From Betaproteobacteria bacterium (GTDB lineage: Bacteria; Pseudomonadota; Gammaproteobacteria; Burkholderiales; Ga0077523), in assembly GCA_025350245.1 (NCBI GenBank), contig JANXYG010000032.1, positions 1 through 52,945 of the forward strand: DNA of 52,945 nt, written 5' to 3'. A program made the position numbers and the translations under genes. Below are positions 27,785-50,928 of the stretch, piece by piece. Position 1 is the first letter of the stretch, and each line of letters opens with the position of its first letter. The notes below the pieces were generated by a model, which worked only from the letters and a program-made list of their open reading frames with translations, did no database searches and was not told the DNA's origin.

Positions 27785-27869
27785 GCCGATGTGGTGAAAT
27801 TGGTAGACACGCTGTCTTGAGGGGGCAGTGGCGAAAGCTGTGGGAGTTCGAGTCTCCCCATCGGCACCA
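27785..27869 (+). tRNA. tRNA-Leu, anticodon GAG
   Basis: The 85-base sequence folds as a class II tRNA: acceptor GCCGATG pairs with CATCGGC, D arm with GAAATTGGTAGAC, anticodon stem CTGTC/GGCAG around the loop TTGAGGG (anticodon GAG, reading CUC/CUU), a short variable arm, and T arm with GTTCGAGTC. The 3' CCA is encoded at 27867-27869. A leucine tRNA between secG and nuoA is the usual arrangement in Burkholderiales. Confidence 0.95.
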
Positions 27870-41363: not shown

Positions 41364-42818
41364 ATGGTGGGTCTGAGTGCGTTCGACTACGCCGCAGTCT
41401 GGCCCGAGATTCTGCTGCTGGTGATGGCGTGCCTGATCCTGCTCGTCGATCTGTTCCTGCCGGACCAACGGCGACACGTGACCTATGTCCTTACCCTGGC
41501 GACGCTGGGTGCGGTCGCACTCGTCACCGGCTGGTCCGCGCGCGCCGAATCGGCATATGCCCTGCACGGCATGTTCGTCGATGATCCGCTCTCCGACACG
41601 CTCAAGGTGATGGTGTGCATCGCGGTGGCGGCGGTGGTCGTCTATTCGCGCGGCTACGTGGTCGCTCGCGGCATGTTCCGCGGGGAGTTTTTCACGCTGC
41701 TGCTGTTCGCGACGCTCGGGATGATGGTGATGATCTCGGCCAACAGCCTGCTCATGCTCTACCTCGGGCTGGAACTGCTGTCGCTGTCGGTATACGCCCT
41801 GGTTGCCTTGCAGCGTGATTCGGCCGCCGGTACCGAGGCGGCGATGAAGTACTTCGTGCTCGGGGCTCTCGCGTCCGGCATGCTGCTCTATGGCATGTCG
41901 ATGATCTACGGCGCCACCGGCACCATCGAGATCCCGAAGATCGCCCAGGCGGTGGCGGACGGAAAGGCGAACGCCACCATTCTCGTGTTCGGACTGGTGT
42001 TCATCGTGGCCGGCATCGGCTTCAAGCTCGGCGCGGTGCCGTTCCACATGTGGGTTCCCGACGTGTACGAGGGCGCTCCCACCATTGTCGGCCAGTTGAT
42101 CAGCACGGCCCCCAAGCTGGCGGCGTTCGCTTTCGTCATGCGGGTGCTGGTGGAGGCGCTGGGCCACCCGTCGATTCTCGCCGAATGGCGTCAGATGCTG
42201 ATCCTGTTGTCGGTGGCAAGCATGGCGGTCGGCAACATCGGCGCCATCGCCCAGACCAACCTGAAGCGCATGTTCGCGTATTCCACCATCTCGCACATGG
42301 GCTTCATGCTGCTCGGCGTGATCGCGGGCGACATCAACGGCTATGGCGCGGGCATGTTCTACGTCGTGGTCTATGCGCTGATGGCACTGGGTGGTTTCGG
42401 CATGATCCTGGCGCTCGCCCGCGATGGTTTCGAAGCGGATCGGCTCGAAGACTTCAAGGGGCTCAACCGCCGCAGTCCCTGGCATGCCCTGCTGATGCTG
42501 CTGCTGATGTTCTCGATGGCCGGCGTGCCGCCGCTGGTGGGGTTCTACGCCAAGCTCGCGGTGCTGCAGGCGGTGGTGAATGCGGGGTTCACGTGGCTCG
42601 CCGTGGTGGCGGTGATGTTCTCCCTGATCGGCGCGTTCTACTACCTGCGCATCGTGCGACTGATGTATTTCGAAGAGCCGACCGATACCTCGCCGATTCA
42701 CGGCTACACGAGCGCGCGTCTGTTGCTCAGCCTGAACGGCATCGCCACCTTGGTGGTCGGTATCGTTCCCGGCTGGTTGATGTCGGTGTGCCAGTACGCG
42801 ATCCAGAGTTCGCTGTGA
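41364..42818 (+). CDS. nuoN: NADH-quinone oxidoreductase subunit N
   Basis: Third antiporter-like subunit and last complex I gene, 484 residues with about 14 membrane helices. Conserved segments are [20 protein letters not shown] (key Glu), [24 protein letters not shown] (key Lys) and [16 protein letters not shown]. The ATG at 41364 starts [15 protein letters not shown]. Its stop overlaps the GTG of the Nudix gene, so the latter belongs to the operon. Confidence 0.97.
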
Positions 42819-43402
42819 GCATCCCGCCGATACCGGAAACCGATTTCACCGAAACCGGACTCGGCTCCACGACGCGCTATCGGGGCCGCATGCTCGAAGT
42901 GCGCGAAGATGAGGTACGACTGCCCGACGGCGGTCAGGCACGGCGGGAGTACGTGGTGCACCCCGGCGCGGCCGTGATCCTGCCGATTTTCGACGACTGG
43001 CGCATCCTGCTGGAGCGGCAGTTCCGCTATCCGCGGCACGATCATTTTCTCGAGTTGCCGGCCGGCAAGTTCGATGCGGGCGAAGCGCCGATCACCACCG
43101 CCCGGCGCGAACTCCGGGAAGAAACCGGCTGTATCGCGGCCGATTGGCACCATCTGTGCACGCTGTACCCATGCGTCGGCTATTCCGACGAAGTCGTGGA
43201 GATGTTCGTTGCGCGTGGACTGACGTTCGAGCGGCCGGCGCTCGATCCAGGCGAATTCCTGGAGACCTTGCTGGTGCCTCTGGACGAGGCACTGGCGTGG
43301 ATACGATCGGGCGTGATCACCGAGGCCAAGACCATTCTCGGCTTGTTCTGGGCCGATCGGCTGCGCGCTGGTTGGCCGCTGGAGCCGAAGCTACCCGCCT
43401 GA
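42815..43402 (+). CDS. Nudix hydrolase, ADP-ribose pyrophosphatase type
   Basis: Probably hydrolyses ADP-ribose or a related nucleoside diphosphate linked to another moiety. The 195-residue protein has a complete Nudix box at residues 84-105 (G-x5-E-x7-REL-x-EE-x-G), preceded by [10 protein letters not shown], typical of ADP-ribose pyrophosphatases. The GTG start shares bases with the nuoN TGA, which suggests translational coupling. A Nudix gene at the end of the nuo operon is common in Burkholderiales. Substrate is inferred. Confidence 0.85.
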
Positions 43403-43577: not shown

Positions 43578-45524
43578 TCAGCCCTGCGACTGATGCCGAA
43601 CCAGGGGCTCTTCGGTTTCGGTTTCGATCAGTGGCTTCGGGTGCTGGAAGAGGTAACCCTGACCGTACTGCACCCCCATGTCGCGCAGCAGTGACAGAAC
43701 CTCGGGTGTTTCGACCCACTTCGCCACCACCTGCTTCGAAAGGCCCTGACCAACGTCACACAGCGCTTTTACGAAGATGCGGTTACCTTCGTCGCGGGTG
43801 AGGTCCCGGACAAAACTGCCGTCGATCTTGATGTAGTCGACGTCGAACTGGCGCAGGTAGTAGAAGGAGCTGAATCCCGACCCAAAATCGTCGAGGCCGA
43901 AACGGCATCCGAGGTGCTTCAATTCCTTGATGAAACCCTTGGTGATGCTCACTTCCGCCATTGCAGCCGATTCCGAGATCTCGAACACCAGTTGCTTGCG
44001 TACCGCACCAGCGCCCTGAAGCAGCTTGTAGAAACGCTGGGTCCAGTGGGGATCGGAAATACTGACTCGCGACAGATTGACGAAGAACCGCGTCTTGGGG
44101 TCACGGTTCGAGGGCTCGTGCAGGAACTCCACCAGCTTCGACGTCACCCTGAGGTCGATTTCCTGGACCATGCCGAGCGATTCGGCAGCCTCGATGAACT
44201 GCCCCGGCGTGACGATGCGGCCATCGTCACCCTCGATGCGGACCAGCACCTCATGGTGCATCACCGCGTTGTCGGCCAGCCGTACCACAGGCTGCGAGTA
44301 CAGCAGCAGCCGGTCTTCGTCGAGTACCTCGCGCAACTGCTTCGCCCAGAGAACCCGCTTGTGCGTCCCCTTCATGGCTTCGCCGCCATCCTGGCCGTAG
44401 GCCACGACCCGGTTACGGCCGGAATCCTTGGCCTGGTAGAGCGCGATGTCGGCCGCGGCCAGCAAACCCGCTGCATCGTTGCCATGAAACGGGTAGAGCG
44501 CCACGCCCGCCGACGCCGTCAGGGTCACGATTCTTCCCTCGGGGCCGATCTTCATCGGATGCTGGCGCAATTGCGCGAGCAGCATTTCCGCGACCTGCAC
44601 GGCTTGCGGCCGCAACGCCGTGGGGAGGTGAATCGCAAATTCGTCACCACCCAGGCGATACACCTTGCCGTGATGTTTGCTGGCGACTTCCTTGAGGGTG
44701 CCGCCCACGGCCAGCAGAATGTGATCGCCCTGGCGGTGACCGACGTTGTCGTTGACGTACTTGAAGTGATCGAGATCGATGAAGGCAACCGCGCCTTTTT
44801 CGCCAGCCTCGAGTGCTCGTTCGACTTCCCGCTGCAGACTGACCCGGTTAGGCAGCCCGGTAAGCGCATCGTGGGTCGCGAGATACTCGATCTGGATGGC
44901 GGCGCGCTGTTCCTCGGTGCTGTCGCGCGCGGTGCCGCGAATGCCCATCATCCCGCCATTTTCGTCGAACGCAACCTTGGCGTTGATTCCGACCCAACGT
45001 TCTTCGCCGTCGGCACCGATGAGTCGGGTGATGTAATTCTTGACCTCGCCGTTTTTCTTGAGGTGCAGAAAGAAGCGACGATTGGATACATGCGCCGGTT
45101 TGGATTCGAAATCGAACAGGCAGCGCCCGATCAGTGCCTGCGGCTTGAGGCCGAAGATGTCCTGGGCAGCATTGTTGAGGTAGGTGAAGCGACCCTGCGT
45201 GTCGGTGGTCCACACCAGATCGTGCGAGGTTTCGACCAGGTCTCGGTAGCGGCTCTCGCTCTCGAGCAGAAGCTGGATGATCCGGCGTTTCTCCTGGAGG
45301 GTCTTGCGAGCATGCTCGAGTTCATCGTTGTACTTGTCGAGCGAGCTGCCAAGCGTCGACGCGGCAAGGCCGTCGATGATCTCCTTGGCGTAGCGCCGGT
45401 GCCCGCCATCGGTGCGGCGCGCCACCAGAACCCCCTGGGCATCCCAGCGGCGCAATTTTTGAACCGGCACTCCAAGCTTATCGGAGACTTCCTGGATGCT
45501 GTACTCGACGCTGTCTTTTGACAT
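43578..45524 (-). CDS. MerR-HTH / PAS / GGDEF / EAL signalling protein, probable fatty-acid-signal sensor
   Basis: Multidomain cytoplasmic regulator of 648 residues. Residues 8-50 look like a MerR-type winged helix (YSIQEVSDKLGVPVQKLRRW, GGHRRY); 60-92 a coiled coil; 92-210 a PAS domain; 218-375 a GGDEF domain with intact GGDEF at 292-296 but no RxxD inhibitory site; 395-640 an EAL domain. In the EAL domain Glu425, Asn483, Glu515, Asp545, Asp546, Lys566 and Gln622 keep the exact spacing of RocR, but residue 602, the RocR Glu352 position, is Lys (VVAKWVE). Phosphodiesterase activity is therefore doubtful. ATG with AGGA five bases upstream. It follows the rpfF-like gene by 63 bases on the same strand, like rpfF-rpfR in Burkholderia; ligand and partner are inferred. 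Confidence 0.9.
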   Translation of the reverse strand: MSKDSVEYSIQEVSDKLGVPVQKLRRWDAQGVLVARRTDGGHRRYAKEIIDGLAASTLGSSLDKYNDELEHARKTLQEKRRIIQLLLESESRYRDLVETSHDLVWTTDTQGRFTYLNNAAQDIFGLKPQALIGRCLFDFESKPAHVSNRRFFLHLKKNGEVKNYITRLIGADGEERWVGINAKVAFDENGGMMGIRGTARDSTEEQRAAIQIEYLATHDALTGLPNRVSLQREVERALEAGEKGAVAFIDLDHFKYVNDNVGHRQGDHILLAVGGTLKEVASKHHGKVYRLGGDEFAIHLPTALRPQAVQVAEMLLAQLRQHPMKIGPEGRIVTLTASAGVALYPFHGNDAAGLLAAADIALYQAKDSGRNRVVAYGQDGGEAMKGTHKRVLWAKQLREVLDEDRLLLYSQPVVRLADNAVMHHEVLVRIEGDDGRIVTPGQFIEAAESLGMVQEIDLRVTSKLVEFLHEPSNRDPKTRFFVNLSRVSISDPHWTQRFYKLLQGAGAVRKQLVFEISESAAMAEVSITKGFIKELKHLGCRFGLDDFGSGFSSFYYLRQFDVDYIKIDGSFVRDLTRDEGNRIFVKALCDVGQGLSKQVVAKWVETPEVLSLLRDMGVQYGQGYLFQHPKPLIETETEEPLVRHQSQG

Positions 45525-45587
45525 TTTTCCTGGCTTTTCAAGATAGATCGACGAAATCCTCCCGATTTCCCCGACTTCCTACCGCGT

Positions 45588-46520
45588 TCAGTGCACCAGG
45601 CCGGCTTCGCCGCCGGCCTCGTTTTGCCTCGACACCAGCCTCTGCATGAGCTTGAGATCGCGTGGTTTCAGGTTGAGGGCTGTTTCGACCCAGATCGCGA
45701 CGACATCCATGAGTTCCTGCAGATTGATACCCGAAACCCGGCGACGAGTACGGGCAATACCGGCCAAGCCGTTGCGACACCGCTGGTTGCGACGAATCAA
45801 GGCGGCGATCTCAAGTTCTCCACCCCCATCATCCGCAACACAATCGACAACGCCAGCCCGCAGCATATCATCCGCCGAGTAGATTTTGCCACTTGAAATC
45901 AGGTCGTCTGCAGCCTTCCTTCCCACTCTACGTTCGAGGAAGGAATAGGCCCCCATGCCAGGGAACAGATTGAAGAGAATTTCGGGAAATCCGAACCGGC
46001 TCGAACGCTCAGCCACGATCAGGTCGCTCGACAGCGCTGCTTCGAATCCACCGCCGAGACACTCGCCTTGAACCAGCGAAATTGTCAGAATCGGCAAACC
46101 ATGTCCGATGTAATTGCTATAAAGCACATCAACGCACGCCTTTCCATAGACGGCCAGGGCATCGCGGTCACGGGTCTCGATCAGGCGCATGAACAGGGCG
46201 AGATCACCACCGAGGTTGAAGACACGCGGTGTGGCCGAGGCGAGAACGGCGTACTCGACAGGCCGTTCCTCACCGTGAAAATCGATGCGTGCCGAGGTCT
46301 CGCGCAGCAGGCGGCAGTACGTGTTGAGGTCGCGCAGCAGTTCCGGATTGAAGCTTGGCCGAGGTGTCGGTCGCAGGCGAAGCCAGACCGCAAGCTGGTC
46401 TGCGTCATAGCAGGCCGACAGTTGTCCGGAGCAGAAAAAGTCGAGGCGATTGCCGGCATTTTCGTATTGGGAGGCCTCTTCGGCTACCTTTAACAGTGCG
46501 CGGGGGATATGCATGTCCAT
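45588..46520 (-). CDS. rpfF: DSF synthase homologue (RpfF-like crotonase)
   Basis: Enzyme of the crotonase fold that in Xanthomonas and Burkholderia makes cis-2-unsaturated fatty acid signals from 3-hydroxyacyl-ACP by dehydration and thioester hydrolysis. The 310-residue product has RVFNLGGDLALF (oxyanion-hole region), LGGGFEAAL with Glu160, and FPEILFNLFPGMGAYSFL with Glu180; these correspond in motif and 20-residue spacing to the catalytic Glu141 and Glu161 of Xanthomonas RpfF. The C-terminal VVAIWVETAL also matches. I chose ATG 46520 (AGGAG nine bases upstream); a TTG at 46595 would add 25 residues. The gene is visibly more AT-rich than its neighbours. It probably forms an operon with the GGDEF/EAL gene. 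Confidence 0.9.
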   Translation of the reverse strand: MDMHIPRALLKVAEEASQYENAGNRLDFFCSGQLSACYDADQLAVWLRLRPTPRPSFNPELLRDLNTYCRLLRETSARIDFHGEERPVEYAVLASATPRVFNLGGDLALFMRLIETRDRDALAVYGKACVDVLYSNYIGHGLPILTISLVQGECLGGGFEAALSSDLIVAERSSRFGFPEILFNLFPGMGAYSFLERRVGRKAADDLISSGKIYSADDMLRAGVVDCVADDGGGELEIAALIRRNQRCRNGLAGIARTRRRVSGINLQELMDVVAIWVETALNLKPRDLKLMQRLVSRQNEAGGEAGLVH

Positions 46521-46808
46521 TTGGAAGTTCTCCTGGGTGAAAGTGAGTTTTGAAACCAAGCGAAACTGTGGAAGTCTCGCTACAATCGACGCCAACCCAC
46601 TGTAAAGGGATGATTTTGTCTCGGCAAATCTCCCGTATTGACAGATTACAAGGGGGTCGTGTCTGGAGATTTTTGATGTTTCCGCAGGAGTTTTCCCGCC
46701 GCGGGGCGCCGCGGCTTGTCGTGGCGCACGACGGGTGACCGGGCCGCCACCGTCGGTGCGCCCGGCATGTCGGGCAATGCAAGGCGTCCATCCGGGAGGA
46801 AGAACGCA
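46521..46808. promoter_or_regulatory. Divergent control region between the rpfF-like and aas-like genes
   Basis: 288 bases, relatively AT-rich for this genome (about half A+T in 46541-46680). It must hold the promoters of both genes. Hexamers such as TACAAT (46581), TTGACA (46638) and, on the other strand, TTTACA (46605-46600) occur, but none pairs with a partner at proper spacing, so I assign no promoter. It is the natural place for an operator of the HTH-containing sensor encoded next door. Confidence 0.4.
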
Positions 46809-48953
46809 ATGACGAGAATGCTGGGCTGGTTGATCAAAATGCTATTTCGCGTCACGGTCACCGGCGATACGTCACCTTTGGGCGAGCGGCGGGTGCTCAT
46901 CGTCGCCAACCACCCGTCGGCGCTGGATTGGTTATGGCTCGCCTACTGCCTGCCGGTGCGGCCGGTGGTGATCTTTCCGCGGGAAGACCGGCGTGGGCGA
47001 CTGGCGCGGTTCCTGTTGCGCTTCGCCGAGCACCAGATGTGGGACATGAACGACCCGCTGACCGTCAAGAAGGTGCTGCGCCTGATCGAGCAGGGCCGGC
47101 CCGTCGCCCTGTTTCCGGAGGGGCGGGTCGCCCGCGCCACCAACGTGATGAAGATCTACGAAGTGCCGGCACTGATCGCCATGAAGAGCGGGGCGACGCT
47201 GGTGCCGGTGCGCATCGATCGACCGCGGGCGGATGGCCCGGTGGTGCTGCGCATGCAGCCGCCGGCGCACATCGACGTCCCGACCGGCCTCGGACCGAAG
47301 GCGCGGCGTGAGGCGGTGGCACGCGAACTGGCCAGGATTCTCCAGGCGGCCACGTTCCACTCCCAACCGGCACGGGGCACGTTCGACGCCTTTCTCGACG
47401 CCGTCTCTCGCGAGGGACGCGCCACTTACATCATCGAGGACCTGAACGAGGAGGCGAAGACCTACGGCGATCTGCTCAAGGCGAGTCTCGCCATCGGGCG
47501 CTGGGCGGCGCGCCACTCACGCGACCAGGAGGCCGTCGGGGTGATGTTGCCCAACCTGTTTGTTTCCGTTGGCGTTCTGCTGGGCCTCCAGTGCTTCGGC
47601 CGGGTGCCGGCGATGATCAACTACACCAGCGGCCCGAGGGGCGTTGAAAGCGCCCGCGCGGCGGTCGGGTTGCGCACGGTGATCACGTCGCGACGCTTCA
47701 TCGACCAGGCTGGTCTCGAGCCGCTCATGGCAGTGCTCGGCGGGCTTCACATCCTCTATGTCGAGGATATCCGGGCCCAGTTCGGCTGGTTCGACAAGCT
47801 CTGGTTGATTGCTTTCGCCCTGCGGTTCCCGCGCCTGGTGCGGCGCTCGGTGAATCCGCATGACCCGGCGGTGATCCTGTTCACGTCGGGGTCGGAAGGC
47901 CGACCCAAGGGCGTGGCGCTGTCGCACGCCGGCATCCAGGCGAACATCCGGCAGATTGCCTCGGTGATCGATTTCACCCCGGCCGACAAGGTGCTCAATG
48001 CGTTGCCGATGTATCACGCCTACAGCTTCACGGCTGGCGTGATGCTCAATGTGCTCACCGGCACCAAACTGTTTTTGTACGTGTCGCCGCTGCGCTATCG
48101 CGCGATTCCGGAGATCGCCTATCGGCGCGACGCCACTTATCTGTTCGGCACCAGCACGTTCCTGGGGTTCTATGCGCGCAATGCCAACCCCGGCGATTTC
48201 GGCAGTCTTCGCTATGTGATCTCGGGGGGCGAGAAACTCGGCGAGGAAGTCGCGCGTCTCTGGCTCGACAAGTTCGGCCTGCGCATCTACGAGGGTTACG
48301 GCGCCACCGAATGCACCGTCATCTCGCTCTCGACGCCGTTGCAGTTCAAGCGCGGCCGGGTCGGCTGCCTGCTGCCTGGAAACGAGGCGCGCATGGAGCC
48401 GGTCGAGGGCATCGCGAACGGCGGTGTGCTGCACGTGCGCGGTCCGGCCGTGATGCTCGGCTACATCACGTCAGAGTTTCCCGGCGTGGTGCAGCCGGTG
48501 GCGTCGAGCCACGGTGAAGGCTGGCATCGAACCGGCGACGTCGTCGAGATCGACCCCGAAGGTTTCCTCCGCATCGCCGGGCGGGTCAAGCGCTTCGCCA
48601 AGATCGCCGGCGAGATGGTGTCGCTGGACCAGGTCGAGCGGGTTGCCGCCGCCGCGTCTCCGGGGTACATGCATGCCGCGGTGCTGAAGCTGCAGGCTTC
48701 CGGCGGCGAAACCACGGTGCTGTTCACCACCGACCCCACCCTCTCGCGGATGCGCCTGCAAAAGGCGGCGCGCGCGCTGGGCGCGCCAGACCTGGCGGTC
48801 GCCCGCAGCGTGGTACGGCTCGACGCCATTCCCCTGCTCGGCAACGGCAAGACCGACTATGTGCGCTTGTTGGAAATCGTTTCCGACGGCCGGCTCTGGA
48901 GCAGCGAGACCGCCGACACCGGTCAAGCCAACCCCGACGCACGGGATCCTTGA
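46809..48953 (+). CDS. aas: Aas-like bifunctional acyltransferase / acyl-ACP (acyl-CoA) synthetase
   Basis: Likely activates free fatty acids with ATP and transfers them to lysophospholipid. The 714-residue protein has an N-terminal glycerophospholipid acyltransferase domain with NHPSALD (HX4D, His35-Asp40) and LFPEGR (101-106), then an adenylate-forming domain with FTSGSEGRPKG (358-368), YEGYGATE and the C-terminal HRTGDVVEID. E. coli Aas has the same two domains and nearly the same length (719). I chose ATG 46809, behind GGGAGGAAG, over an upstream in-frame start at 46716. It is divergent from the rpfF-like gene, where Xanthomonas has the fatty acyl-CoA ligase rpfB. Confidence 0.88.
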   Translation: MTRMLGWLIKMLFRVTVTGDTSPLGERRVLIVANHPSALDWLWLAYCLPVRPVVIFPREDRRGRLARFLLRFAEHQMWDMNDPLTVKKVLRLIEQGRPVALFPEGRVARATNVMKIYEVPALIAMKSGATLVPVRIDRPRADGPVVLRMQPPAHIDVPTGLGPKARREAVARELARILQAATFHSQPARGTFDAFLDAVSREGRATYIIEDLNEEAKTYGDLLKASLAIGRWAARHSRDQEAVGVMLPNLFVSVGVLLGLQCFGRVPAMINYTSGPRGVESARAAVGLRTVITSRRFIDQAGLEPLMAVLGGLHILYVEDIRAQFGWFDKLWLIAFALRFPRLVRRSVNPHDPAVILFTSGSEGRPKGVALSHAGIQANIRQIASVIDFTPADKVLNALPMYHAYSFTAGVMLNVLTGTKLFLYVSPLRYRAIPEIAYRRDATYLFGTSTFLGFYARNANPGDFGSLRYVISGGEKLGEEVARLWLDKFGLRIYEGYGATECTVISLSTPLQFKRGRVGCLLPGNEARMEPVEGIANGGVLHVRGPAVMLGYITSEFPGVVQPVASSHGEGWHRTGDVVEIDPEGFLRIAGRVKRFAKIAGEMVSLDQVERVAAAASPGYMHAAVLKLQASGGETTVLFTTDPTLSRMRLQKAARALGAPDLAVARSVVRLDAIPLLGNGKTDYVRLLEIVSDGRLWSSETADTGQANPDARDP

Positions 48954-49008: not shown

Positions 49009-50928
49009 ATGAGCGAAACCACTGAACGCGAAACACTGGGCTTCCAGGCCGAGGTCAAGCAGTTGCTCGACCTCATGATCCACTCGCTCTACAGCAACAA
49101 GGAAATCTTCCTGCGCGAGCTGGTTTCCAATGCCTCGGATGCCGCCGACAAGCTGCGCTTCGAGGCGATTGCCGACCCGGCGCTGTACGGAGACGACCCC
49201 GAACTCGATATCCGCGTGTCGTTCGACAAGGCCGCGCGGACCATCACCATCGCCGACAACGGCATCGGCATGTCGCGCGACGAGGTCATCGCCAACATCG
49301 GTACCATCGCCAAGTCCGGGACCCGCGAGTTCTTCCAGGCGCTCACCGGTGACCAGGCGAAAGATGCCAATCTCATCGGCCAGTTCGGCGTCGGCTTTTA
49401 CTCCGTGTTCATCGTGGCCGACCGGGTCACGCTTGAGACCCGCCGCGCCGGCCTCGATACGGCTCAGGGCGTGCGCTGGGAATCCGCCGGCGGTGGCGAG
49501 TACACCCTTGAACCGATCGCCCGTCCGGTTCGGGGCACCTCGGTCACGCTGCATCTGCGCGCAGGCGAAGACGATTTCCTGAGCGGCTGGAAACTGCGCG
49601 AGGTCCTGCGACGCTATTCCGATCACATCACCTTGCCGATCGTGATGAAGAAGGAGCAGTGGGACGAGGCGAAGAGCGCACAGGTAGCCACCGAGGAAGA
49701 CGAGCAGGTCAACCAGGCGTCGGCCTTGTGGGCGCGCCCCAAGGCCGAGATCACCCGGGAGCAGTACCAGGCGTTCTACCAGCATGTGGCGCACGACCAC
49801 GAAGCGCCGCTTGCCTGGACCCACGCCAGGGTCGAGGGTCGGCAGGAATACACCCAGTTGCTGTTCATTCCGGCGCGCGCGCCGTTCGACCTGTGGGATC
49901 GTGACCATCGCCGGGGCGTGAAGCTGTACGTGCGGCGCGTGTTCATCATGGACGATGCCGAGCAGTTGCTGCCCGCCTATCTGCGCTTTGTCCGTGGCGT
50001 GATCGATTCGGCCGATCTGCCACTGAACGTCTCGCGCGAGATCCTCCAGCAATCGCGCGATGTCGAGGCCATCCGCAATGGTTCGGTCAAGAAGATCCTC
50101 GGCCTGCTCGAAGAACTCGCCACTGCCGAACCCGACAAGTACGCCGGCTTCTGGTCCGAGCTCGGCCGCGTCCTCAAGGAAGGGATCGGCGAGGACTTCG
50201 CCAATCGCGAGCGCATCGCCAAGCTGCTGCGGTTCGCGTCGACCCACCTCGACACCGAGGCGCAGGGCGTCTCGTTCACCGACTATATCGGCCGGATGAA
50301 AGAGGGGCAGGAGCGCATCTATTTCATCACCGCCGACAGCTTCGCCGCGGCAAAGAATTCGCCGCACCTCGAGGTGTTTCGCAAGAAGGGCGTCGAAGTC
50401 CTGCTGCTCTCGGACCGCATCGACGAATGGGTCGTCTCGCATCTGACCGAGATCGACGGCAAGACGCTGCAGTCGGTTGCCAAGGGTGATCTCGACCTGG
50501 GCAGGCTCGAGGACGAGACCGAGAAGGCCGCGCAGGAGCAAAGCGCGGAGGAGTTCAAGGACCTGATCGAGCGCATCGGCAAGGCGTTGGGCGATCAGAC
50601 CCGCGAAGTGCGCGTGACACACCGGCTGACCGATTCACCGGCCTGCCTAGTTGCCGACCAGCACGGCATGGGCAACAACCTCGAGCGGATGCTGAAGGCG
50701 GCGGGCCAGAAGGTCCCTGACAGCAAGCCGGTGCTCGAGATCAATCCCACCCATCCGCTGGTGCAGCGGCTCAAGGCCGAGGCGGACGGCACCCGCTTCG
50801 ACGACTGGAGCCGCATCCTGTTCGACCAGGCGCTGCTCGCCGAGGGCGGTCAGCTCGAAGATCCGGGCACGTTCGTGAAGCGGATCAACTCCCTGCTGCT
50901 CGACATGGCCGGCGATCACGGCGCCTGA
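49009..50928 (+). CDS. htpG: Chaperone protein HtpG (Hsp90)
   Basis: Bacterial Hsp90, ATP-dependent homodimeric chaperone that works with DnaK. The 639-residue protein has the GHKL ATPase motifs [16 protein letters not shown] (about 38-53), [13 protein letters not shown] and [11 protein letters not shown], a middle domain with [12 protein letters not shown], and the C-terminal dimerisation domain. GGGGAG lies just before the ATG. A sigma32-type promoter precedes it. Length is close to the usual 630-640. Confidence 0.97.

Follow-up and report, generated by a model that had tools for sequence, protein, structure and literature searches.

An RpfF-type crotonase linked to a MerR-PAS-GGDEF-EAL protein and an Aas-type enzyme: a putative fatty acid signaling module of mostly uncultured betaproteobacteria

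What kind of fatty acid signaling, if any, is encoded where a crotonase gene lies between a gene for a PAS-GGDEF-EAL protein with a DNA-binding domain and a gene for a fatty acid-activating enzyme? The question is raised by a locus in a stretch of 52,945 nt (the window) from Betaproteobacteria bacterium, which is the whole of contig JANXYG010000032.1 (assembly GCA_025350245.1; C123 in this analysis) from a genome of 3.99 Mb in 156 contigs. A first-pass annotation had read the three genes as one module for making, sensing, and recycling a cis-2 fatty acid signal. From comparative sequence data, we consider it fairly likely that the locus is an RpfF-type signal module, in which the sensor would be a one-piece receptor and transcription factor that autoregulates rpfF and perhaps also aas. 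The first-pass observation holds up, and the case for it is somewhat better than could be seen at that stage. The locus comprises the following features (ACP, acyl carrier protein; ORF, open reading frame):

43578..45524, minus strand: sensor/regulator gene, 648 aa (ORF list, Pfam, residue alignment, and predicted structure)
45588..46520, minus strand: RpfF-type crotonase, putative synthase of a cis-2 fatty acid signal, 310 aa with ATG 46520 as start
46521..46808, no strand: divergent rpfF-aas intergenic region, 288 bp
46599..46627, minus strand: candidate sigma-70-type rpfF promoter, TTGCCG-N17-TACAGT (base preferences in 37 aligned sites)
46626..46648, minus strand: candidate operator, inverted repeat TAATCTGTCA-ATA-CGGGAGATTT, ending 105 bp before the ATG of rpfF
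46809..48953, plus strand: Aas-type bifunctional acyltransferase/acyl-ACP synthetase, 714 aa from the probable start ATG 46809, putative free fatty acid recycler

The three ORFs, their strands, and the 63 bases that separate the sensor start from the crotonase stop were confirmed by the ORF list. The extent of the sensor gene also stood as annotated, but the starts of the other two genes had to be moved. The crotonase ORF had first been called as 45588..46595 (minus strand) and the Aas-like ORF as 46716..48953 (plus strand). Most close homologs of the crotonase aligned from about residue 15–26 of the long ORF, and homology together with a ribosome-binding site placed the start at ATG 46520, which is residue 26. 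Judged by homologs and ribosome-binding sites, the Aas gene probably starts at ATG 46809.

Pfam assigned the crotonase to ECH_1. The closest solved chains by sequence were RpfF or close kin (6dgn, 5fus, 3m6m, and 7zq7; E 1e-57 to 1e-47), and the next chain was an ordinary crotonase with an E value of 8.5e-16. The tree had 116 rows, and the window crotonase fell inside a 44-row clade (SH-aLRT 100) nested in a 110-row group with the Xanthomonas and Cronobacter RpfF references; L066, one of the listed matches with 41%–53% identity, was attached at the base of this clade of 44. The six hydratase rows of the same genome (five of them different) lay outside the RpfF group on long branches, which were flagged by the tool used for this quick tree. 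The structure model of the crotonase (pLDDT 85, from 44 sequences) gave RpfF for all of its top 12 PDB folds (TMt 0.89–0.91), while other crotonases reached at most 0.79 among the best 50 rows. Both the structural comparison and the phylogeny proposed at first pass thus grouped the crotonase with RpfF and not with ordinary enoyl-CoA hydratases. The presence of the two catalytic Glu motifs also held, as the Glu residues of GGFE and FPE were invariant in 44/44 aligned homologs. Ordinary enoyl-CoA hydratases likewise have two acidic residues at these positions, so the motifs are not diagnostic of RpfF, and we dropped them as proof. Against the NCBIfam equivalog NF053515 (RpfF), the window crotonase scored 202 bits, below the cut-off of 550. 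Since two Burkholderia-type RpfF proteins of the same order also failed (189 and 181 bits), this is a narrow model that does not mark the boundary of the wider RpfF family. We concluded that the crotonase is of the RpfF/DSF (diffusible signal factor) synthase type, in a clade of its own and apart from ordinary hydratases. From the family, we infer a cis-2-unsaturated acid as its product.

The domains that had been assigned to the sensor were all recovered by Pfam: MerR (residues 9–45), PAS (92–201; the domain as a whole is taken as about 92–204), GGDEF (216–372), and EAL (395–629). The MerR helix-turn-helix (HTH) scored 44.1 bits with PF00376, above the family cut-off of 28.2. Profile searches matched chains of CarH and TipA as well as 6amk/6ama, which we take to be BldC. 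The predicted model (pLDDT 84, pTM 0.56) contained a long helix, residues 62–98, between HTH and PAS. The HTH signature has 22 columns, and 14 of them were invariant across 47 sensors, with L139 and one duplicate left out; the N-terminus of the L139 sensor was divergent and not recognized as MerR by Pfam. Among 49 sensor rows, both active sites were complete in 25, only the GGDEF motif in 12, only EAL in 1, and neither in 11. A duplicate (L223 = L042), the frameshifted L039, and the cut L213 are all among the 12. The complete set of EAL catalytic residues was present in 26/49 rows, to which the window copy does not belong. Its GGDEF motif is intact, its EAL motif reads EVL, and K stands in place of E at residue 602, which we assume to be the general base, this and the other catalytic roles being taken from RocR. 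The window-family relatives in the alignment share this K, and one lineage of nine sensors combines it with GEDQ or GEDR instead of GGDE. The K at residue 602 disfavored an active phosphodiesterase role of the window sensor. Because most HTH signature columns were invariant and the enzymatic residues were less strictly kept, the DNA-binding part appears to be the one best kept by selection.

The sensor shares with RpfR the PAS-GGDEF-EAL order next to rpfF, but the analogy did not extend further. The N-terminal FI domain, which binds RpfF in RpfR, was absent; residues 9–45 of the sensor form the MerR HTH, followed by the long helix. Against PRK10060, presumably the PdeR model, the window sensor scored 271 bits (cut-off 782), compared to 1079 bits for the RpfR of L143. 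No RpfR entry was among the best 60 of 97 matches in the sequence-profile search, which says nothing either way. RpfR is known to contact the Burkholderia diffusible signal factor (BDSF) through S169, N172, Y183, R187, and N202 (PMC6361424). By the missing FI domain, the PRK10060 score, and the residues at the BDSF contacts (see below), identity of the sensor with RpfR was ruled out. Since it lacks FI, scores below the RpfR cut-off, and combines a conserved HTH with a matching candidate operator, the sensor appears to be a one-component transcription factor and not primarily a c-di-GMP (cyclic di-GMP) phosphodiesterase.

We surveyed the neighborhood in 150 genomes of the order, with the clade defined by a crotonase identity of 56% or more and the sensor counted as linked when located on the same strand within 600 bp after rpfF. 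The clade crotonase was present in 22/150 genomes from 10 families, and all 22 had the sensor directly downstream. Aas was divergently adjacent to rpfF in 18/22, and all three genes were together there, so the arrangement is not a feature of one genome, which the first-pass annotation had named as a way to refute it. As the rpfF-sensor pair recurred in 22/22 clade genomes of the 150, the linkage is more than chance. Named assemblies provided at least 28 clade loci, partly from the same genomes as the 22. Among the matches listed, all of these loci were from metagenome-assembled genomes (MAGs), the sensor was downstream in 26/28, and Aas was divergent in 27/28. L061 had no sensor, L065 ended inside the crotonase, and the gap was 1.7 kb in L045.

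The divergent gene product showed fused Acyltransferase and AMP-binding domains in Pfam. Its best NCBIfam model was PRK08043 (E. coli-type Aas) with 710 bits, under the equivalog cut-off of 886; by domains and score, the product is Aas-type, though outside the PRK08043 equivalog. Aas was found in 19/22 clade genomes compared to 32/128 genomes without the clade. The three clade genomes lacking Aas at E 1e-60 (G048, G092, and G132) belong to family f48, and the contig of G126 stops next to rpfF. G057 and G008 (L136 and L137) have a second Aas elsewhere in the genome.

A family consensus inverted repeat of 23 bp, AAATCTAACA-N3-TGTTAGATTT, was present in the rpfF-aas intergenic regions, and at most loci it overlapped the rpfF -35 box. 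The best scores in 40 such regions were 16–20 in 29, 13–15 in nine (L049 = 14), and 12 in two (L131 and L061). A site scoring ≥14/20 was located 69–172 bp from the ATG in 36/40 regions, or in 37 together with the degenerate-looking L049. Shuffled controls (8,000 regions) reached ≥14 in 1.6% and ≥16 in 0.01%, and 17 never. For the lower-scoring rpfF genes, 62 upstream regions were usable: L065, of the same clade, scored 15, and the other 61 (L139 included) scored 13 or less; L066 was left out of this control, as it has no real upstream sequence. The 37 aligned sites showed TTGC at positions 22–25 and, at a fixed distance, a TNNAAT-like element at positions 45–50 (T in 31, A in 33, and T in 31 sites at positions 45, 48, and 50). 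Because this spacing is a promoter-like pattern, the right arm of the repeat would cover the -35 box. In the window, the right arm of the operator 46648-46626 overlaps the -35 element TTGCCG, which is followed after N17 by TACAGT and then by ATG 46520.

The consensus was derived from the same intergenic regions that were scored, and a whole-genome search with a strict pattern is therefore the more independent test, even if the module genomes still fed the pattern. With one mismatch allowed, the pattern was found in 16/22 clade genomes and in 0/128 others, and the reversed control gave 0/150. The window genome, whose site is divergent, was one of the six clade genomes missed. The repeat was present upstream of rpfF in 3/3 loci without Aas (scores of 19, 18, and 19). 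At L061, the rpfF region had no such repeat; rpfF is directly followed there by the nuoN homolog, and no sensor was found in that genome (E 1e-20). In G148, the site at rpfF was lost, two sites elsewhere were kept, and the sensor was present. Based on these three cases, we tied the site to the sensor rather than to aas. Taken together, the comparative evidence is strong for the 23-bp repeat as the putative binding site of the MerR-type HTH of the sensor.

Outside the rpfF locus, the strict pattern identified 19 sites in nine clade genomes and none in the 128 genomes without the clade; we regard these sites as a candidate regulon. Among the genes whose starts face them are those for proteins with the domains REC-PAS-GAF-GGDEF-EAL (G036), GGDEF-EAL (G090), and PAS-GAF-HD (G132), for a sigma-54 activator (G023), and for an ABC exporter (G132), and three sites (L189, L196, and L199) faced c-di-GMP enzymes. 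At L184 and L187, from different families, the site faced a related Haem_oxygenas_2 gene (64% identical), which adjoins a GGDEF-EAL gene (71% identical over the part available). We assume that this Haem_oxygenas_2/TENA-type gene may encode a fatty-acid-related enzyme. Many of the candidate ORFs had no Pfam match, and some sites, e.g., L193, were located between convergent genes. Since the genes are mixed and were read from simple ORF lists and not with a gene finder, we claim no function for the regulon.

We propose that the crotonase would convert 3-hydroxyacyl-ACP to a cis-2-unsaturated fatty acid and release it, and that the PAS domain of the sensor would sense this acid. The GGDEF/EAL pair may make, degrade, or, where the EAL base is changed as it is here, perhaps merely bind c-di-GMP. 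With the MerR-type HTH bound to the repeat over the -35 box of rpfF, the signal and c-di-GMP would gate transcription of the synthase operon as a feedback, possibly also of the divergent aas and of further operator-bearing genes; the effect could be activation or repression. The Aas-type enzyme may return free fatty acids from the thioesterase side activity of RpfF to acyl-ACP and phospholipid, which would be the role of RpfB in Xanthomonas by another chemistry. According to PMC4504480, RpfF dehydrates 3-hydroxyacyl-ACP, frees the cis-2 acid, and also cleaves other acyl-ACPs; RpfB, a fatty acid ligase, counteracts this thioesterase action in Xanthomonas, and an acyl-ACP synthetase was added in vitro to reverse the cleavage. 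Because RpfF also cleaves other acyl-ACPs, an Aas-type acyl-ACP synthetase beside rpfF fits a recycling role. Two parts of the module as first described, making and recycling, thus fit the biochemistry of RpfF and RpfB by homology, while sensing of the product gained no support from the RpfR contacts (1/5 identical).

Several observations weigh against this mechanism. The genomes in the counts are related, so the Fisher values for co-occurrence cannot be read as if the events were independent. The window PAS residues aligned to the five BDSF contacts are N, F, K, T, and N, of which only the one at N202 is identical, as read from a low-identity alignment. The site of the window itself is divergent (14/20), yet 0/200 shuffles reached that score. 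Four other sites were weak against 200 shuffles (L038, 2; L039, 5; L136, 5; L049, 7). L131 has the sensor and no site at rpfF, and L049 only a degenerate one. In the window's family, 3/8 genomes with rpfF missed the family pattern; on inspection, two of these have weaker or variant sites and G155 only a poor one. The pattern was not found in the four rpfF-less genomes of this family, and the orphan sensor loci L140–L142, with an intact HTH, had no operator of consensus sequence. The L061 genome is a MAG of unstated completeness. Finally, the window genome has only one further site (G000:C90), upstream of an aldo/keto reductase gene, and the candidate regulon is of mixed composition.

Some of these points would agree with an alternative that we regard as unlikely: the crotonase makes a fatty acid and the PAS domain reads another cue (redox, a gas, a different lipid, or c-di-GMP only), the operator then serving c-di-GMP or stress control of rpfF without a closed circuit. 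The polar BDSF contacts of RpfR are mostly missing from the PAS domain. The best 50 PAS folds (Z 13.8–14.8) were tied general PAS/LOV domains with no RpfR PAS among them, which says nothing either way. Moreover, the sensor persists without rpfF in three of the 150 genomes (G029, G075, and G084), in which Aas is also lacking at E 1e-60 and nuo and htpG still flank the sensor, and among the 12 genomes of the window's family the sensor is present in 12/12 and rpfF in 8/12. On the other hand, synthase and sensor are adjacent in every clade genome across the 10 families, and no operator was found in cases of rpfF loss. The type of partner also shifts with the RpfF clade, and the partners of other clades resemble known DSF receptors. 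For the other 52 loci (41%–53% identity, among the matches listed), an RpfC-like kinase ORF was located within 3.5 kb in 43 and not in nine. HisKA-HATPase-REC-Hpt domains were confirmed in 4/5 such rpfF neighbors from genomes of the order; at the fifth locus, L149, the ORF was kinase-like by similarity. Two rpfF copies with 37% identity were convergent to RpfR.

That the inverted repeat is the site of another regulator of fatty acid genes, with the MerR domain of the sensor binding elsewhere, seems quite improbable to us. Such a regulator would explain why the site is missing from orphan sensors whose HTH is the same, and binding of the sensor to the repeat is deduced from comparison. But the site tracks the sensor and was not found at the rpfF of L061, whose genome has no detected sensor; the 61 usable upstream regions of rpfF genes from other clades scored 13 or less, and G148 kept its sites elsewhere after the loss at rpfF. 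The strict pattern was also absent from all 128 non-clade genomes, though 32 of these have Aas.

Plain conserved synteny, i.e., three unrelated genes held in a nuo-htpG stretch, is very improbable. The nuoN homolog, a nudix-like ORF, and htpG do flank the module in many loci, but the three genes were together in G057 and G008 without any nuo or htpG match in 11-kb stretches, and in G144 a distant version of the set, made up of rpfF (44%), sensor (38%), and one stand-alone acyl ligase, forms a single row in a different order. With these three genomes, conserved flanking order was ruled out as the sole cause of the linkage. In addition, five sensor loci kept their flanks while rpfF and Aas are both missing (L140–L142, L216, and L217; L142 has extra ORFs between, and L217 keeps the flank on the nuo side). 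That the crotonase is an ordinary beta-oxidation enoyl-CoA hydratase is scarcely credible, since its superfamily, the ECH_1 match, and the score under the RpfF equivalog cut-off would allow it but tree and fold contradict it, and the cut-off is too narrow even for Burkholderia-type RpfF.

The embedding of the locus between nuo and htpG, as first annotated, was borne out by the flanking genes:

41364..42818, plus strand: nuoN homolog, end of the nuo region, recurring beside the module
49009..50928, plus strand: htpG

The name nuoN for the ORF 41364..42818 is our assumption, following the first-pass annotation. Between nuoN and the sensor lies the ORF 42815-43402 (plus strand), which is presumably nudix-like, judged by its motif; many related loci have an ORF of about 180–220 aa in its place. 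A single tRNA was found in the window, tRNA-Leu (GAG) at 27785-27869 (plus strand).

Some further rpfF loci differed in their surroundings. A Burkholderia-type rpfF convergent with RpfR was present in genomes of the order at L143 and L144, and the RpfR of L143 keeps 5/5 BDSF-contact residues and passes PRK10060. In L066/G161 and L154/G065, the module occurs together with another rpfF that lies near an RpfC-like kinase, so two fatty acid systems may coexist there. The Methylophaga contigs L094 and L102 have a GGDEF-EAL gene that resembles the sensor apart from its missing HTH; it lies on the same strand as rpfF and about 1.2 kb upstream, and an RpfC-like kinase ORF is present as well. According to tree position, the record titles of L053, L061, and L085 look wrong: MAG contigs titled Bordetella parapertussis were placed with uncultured betaproteobacteria, and 'Mycobacterium sp. 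KBS0706' clustered with Inquilinus.

Known DSF receptors act via a kinase (RpfC), via a change in c-di-GMP (RpfR), or via a separate DNA-binding protein (RpfR-GtrR). As in the RpfF-RpfR (BDSF) system of Burkholderia and Cronobacter, an RpfF-type synthase here adjoins a PAS-GGDEF-EAL protein. In contrast to that system, receptor and DNA-binding domain form one fusion protein without an FI domain, the genes are co-directional and not convergent, loss of catalytic residues is frequent, and there is a linked acyl-ACP synthetase. Burkholderia RpfR binds c-di-GMP and acts on promoters via GtrR, its activity being lowered by c-di-GMP and raised by BDSF (PMC12838280). Like the Xanthomonas RpfF-RpfC-RpfG system with RpfB, as described in PMC4504480, the module links a synthase to a sensor and a fatty acid ligase. 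Unlike in Xanthomonas, the sensor has no kinase domain but PAS-GGDEF-EAL and HTH, and the ligase, encoded divergently, is an Aas-type enzyme that includes an acyltransferase domain. In E. coli, PdeR exerts control over MlrA, a MerR-like activator, and PdeL combines EAL with DNA binding (PMC5052742), whereas here MerR-HTH, PAS, GGDEF, and EAL are in one polypeptide and paired with RpfF, which sets the sensor apart from PdeR/DgcM/MlrA and PdeL. The window sensor looks like the two-part arrangements RpfR-GtrR and PdeR-MlrA drawn into one protein. FadD1 of Pseudomonas aeruginosa, also a fatty acid ligase, is connected with cis-2 fatty acid signaling and with DNA (PMC12754631); the likeness lies in a ligase tied to cis-2 signaling, while the Aas described here has acyltransferase and AMP-binding domains. 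The portion of the openly licensed PMC literature that was surveyed described no MerR-PAS-GGDEF-EAL protein and no rpfF-Aas linkage.

We tentatively suggest, as a possibility that may well prove too broad, a third class of fatty acid quorum-sensing receptor, which would unite a signal-binding PAS domain, a c-di-GMP module, and a MerR HTH in one cytosolic protein, control its own synthase directly through a conserved operator, have a regulon with c-di-GMP enzymes, and have its GGDEF/EAL domains repeatedly turned into inactive nucleotide receptors. The locus would be a third arrangement for fatty acid communication, in mostly uncultured betaproteobacteria. The linkage to Aas would provide a clean test of the idea of a dedicated repair enzyme for the thioesterase side reaction of RpfF. 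The logic of 'fatty acid in, c-di-GMP modifier, promoter out' would be testable with one protein and one 23-bp site. With a fused receptor and a readable operator, it may become possible to predict the targets of fatty acid signaling from sequence in bacteria that are known mostly through metagenomes.

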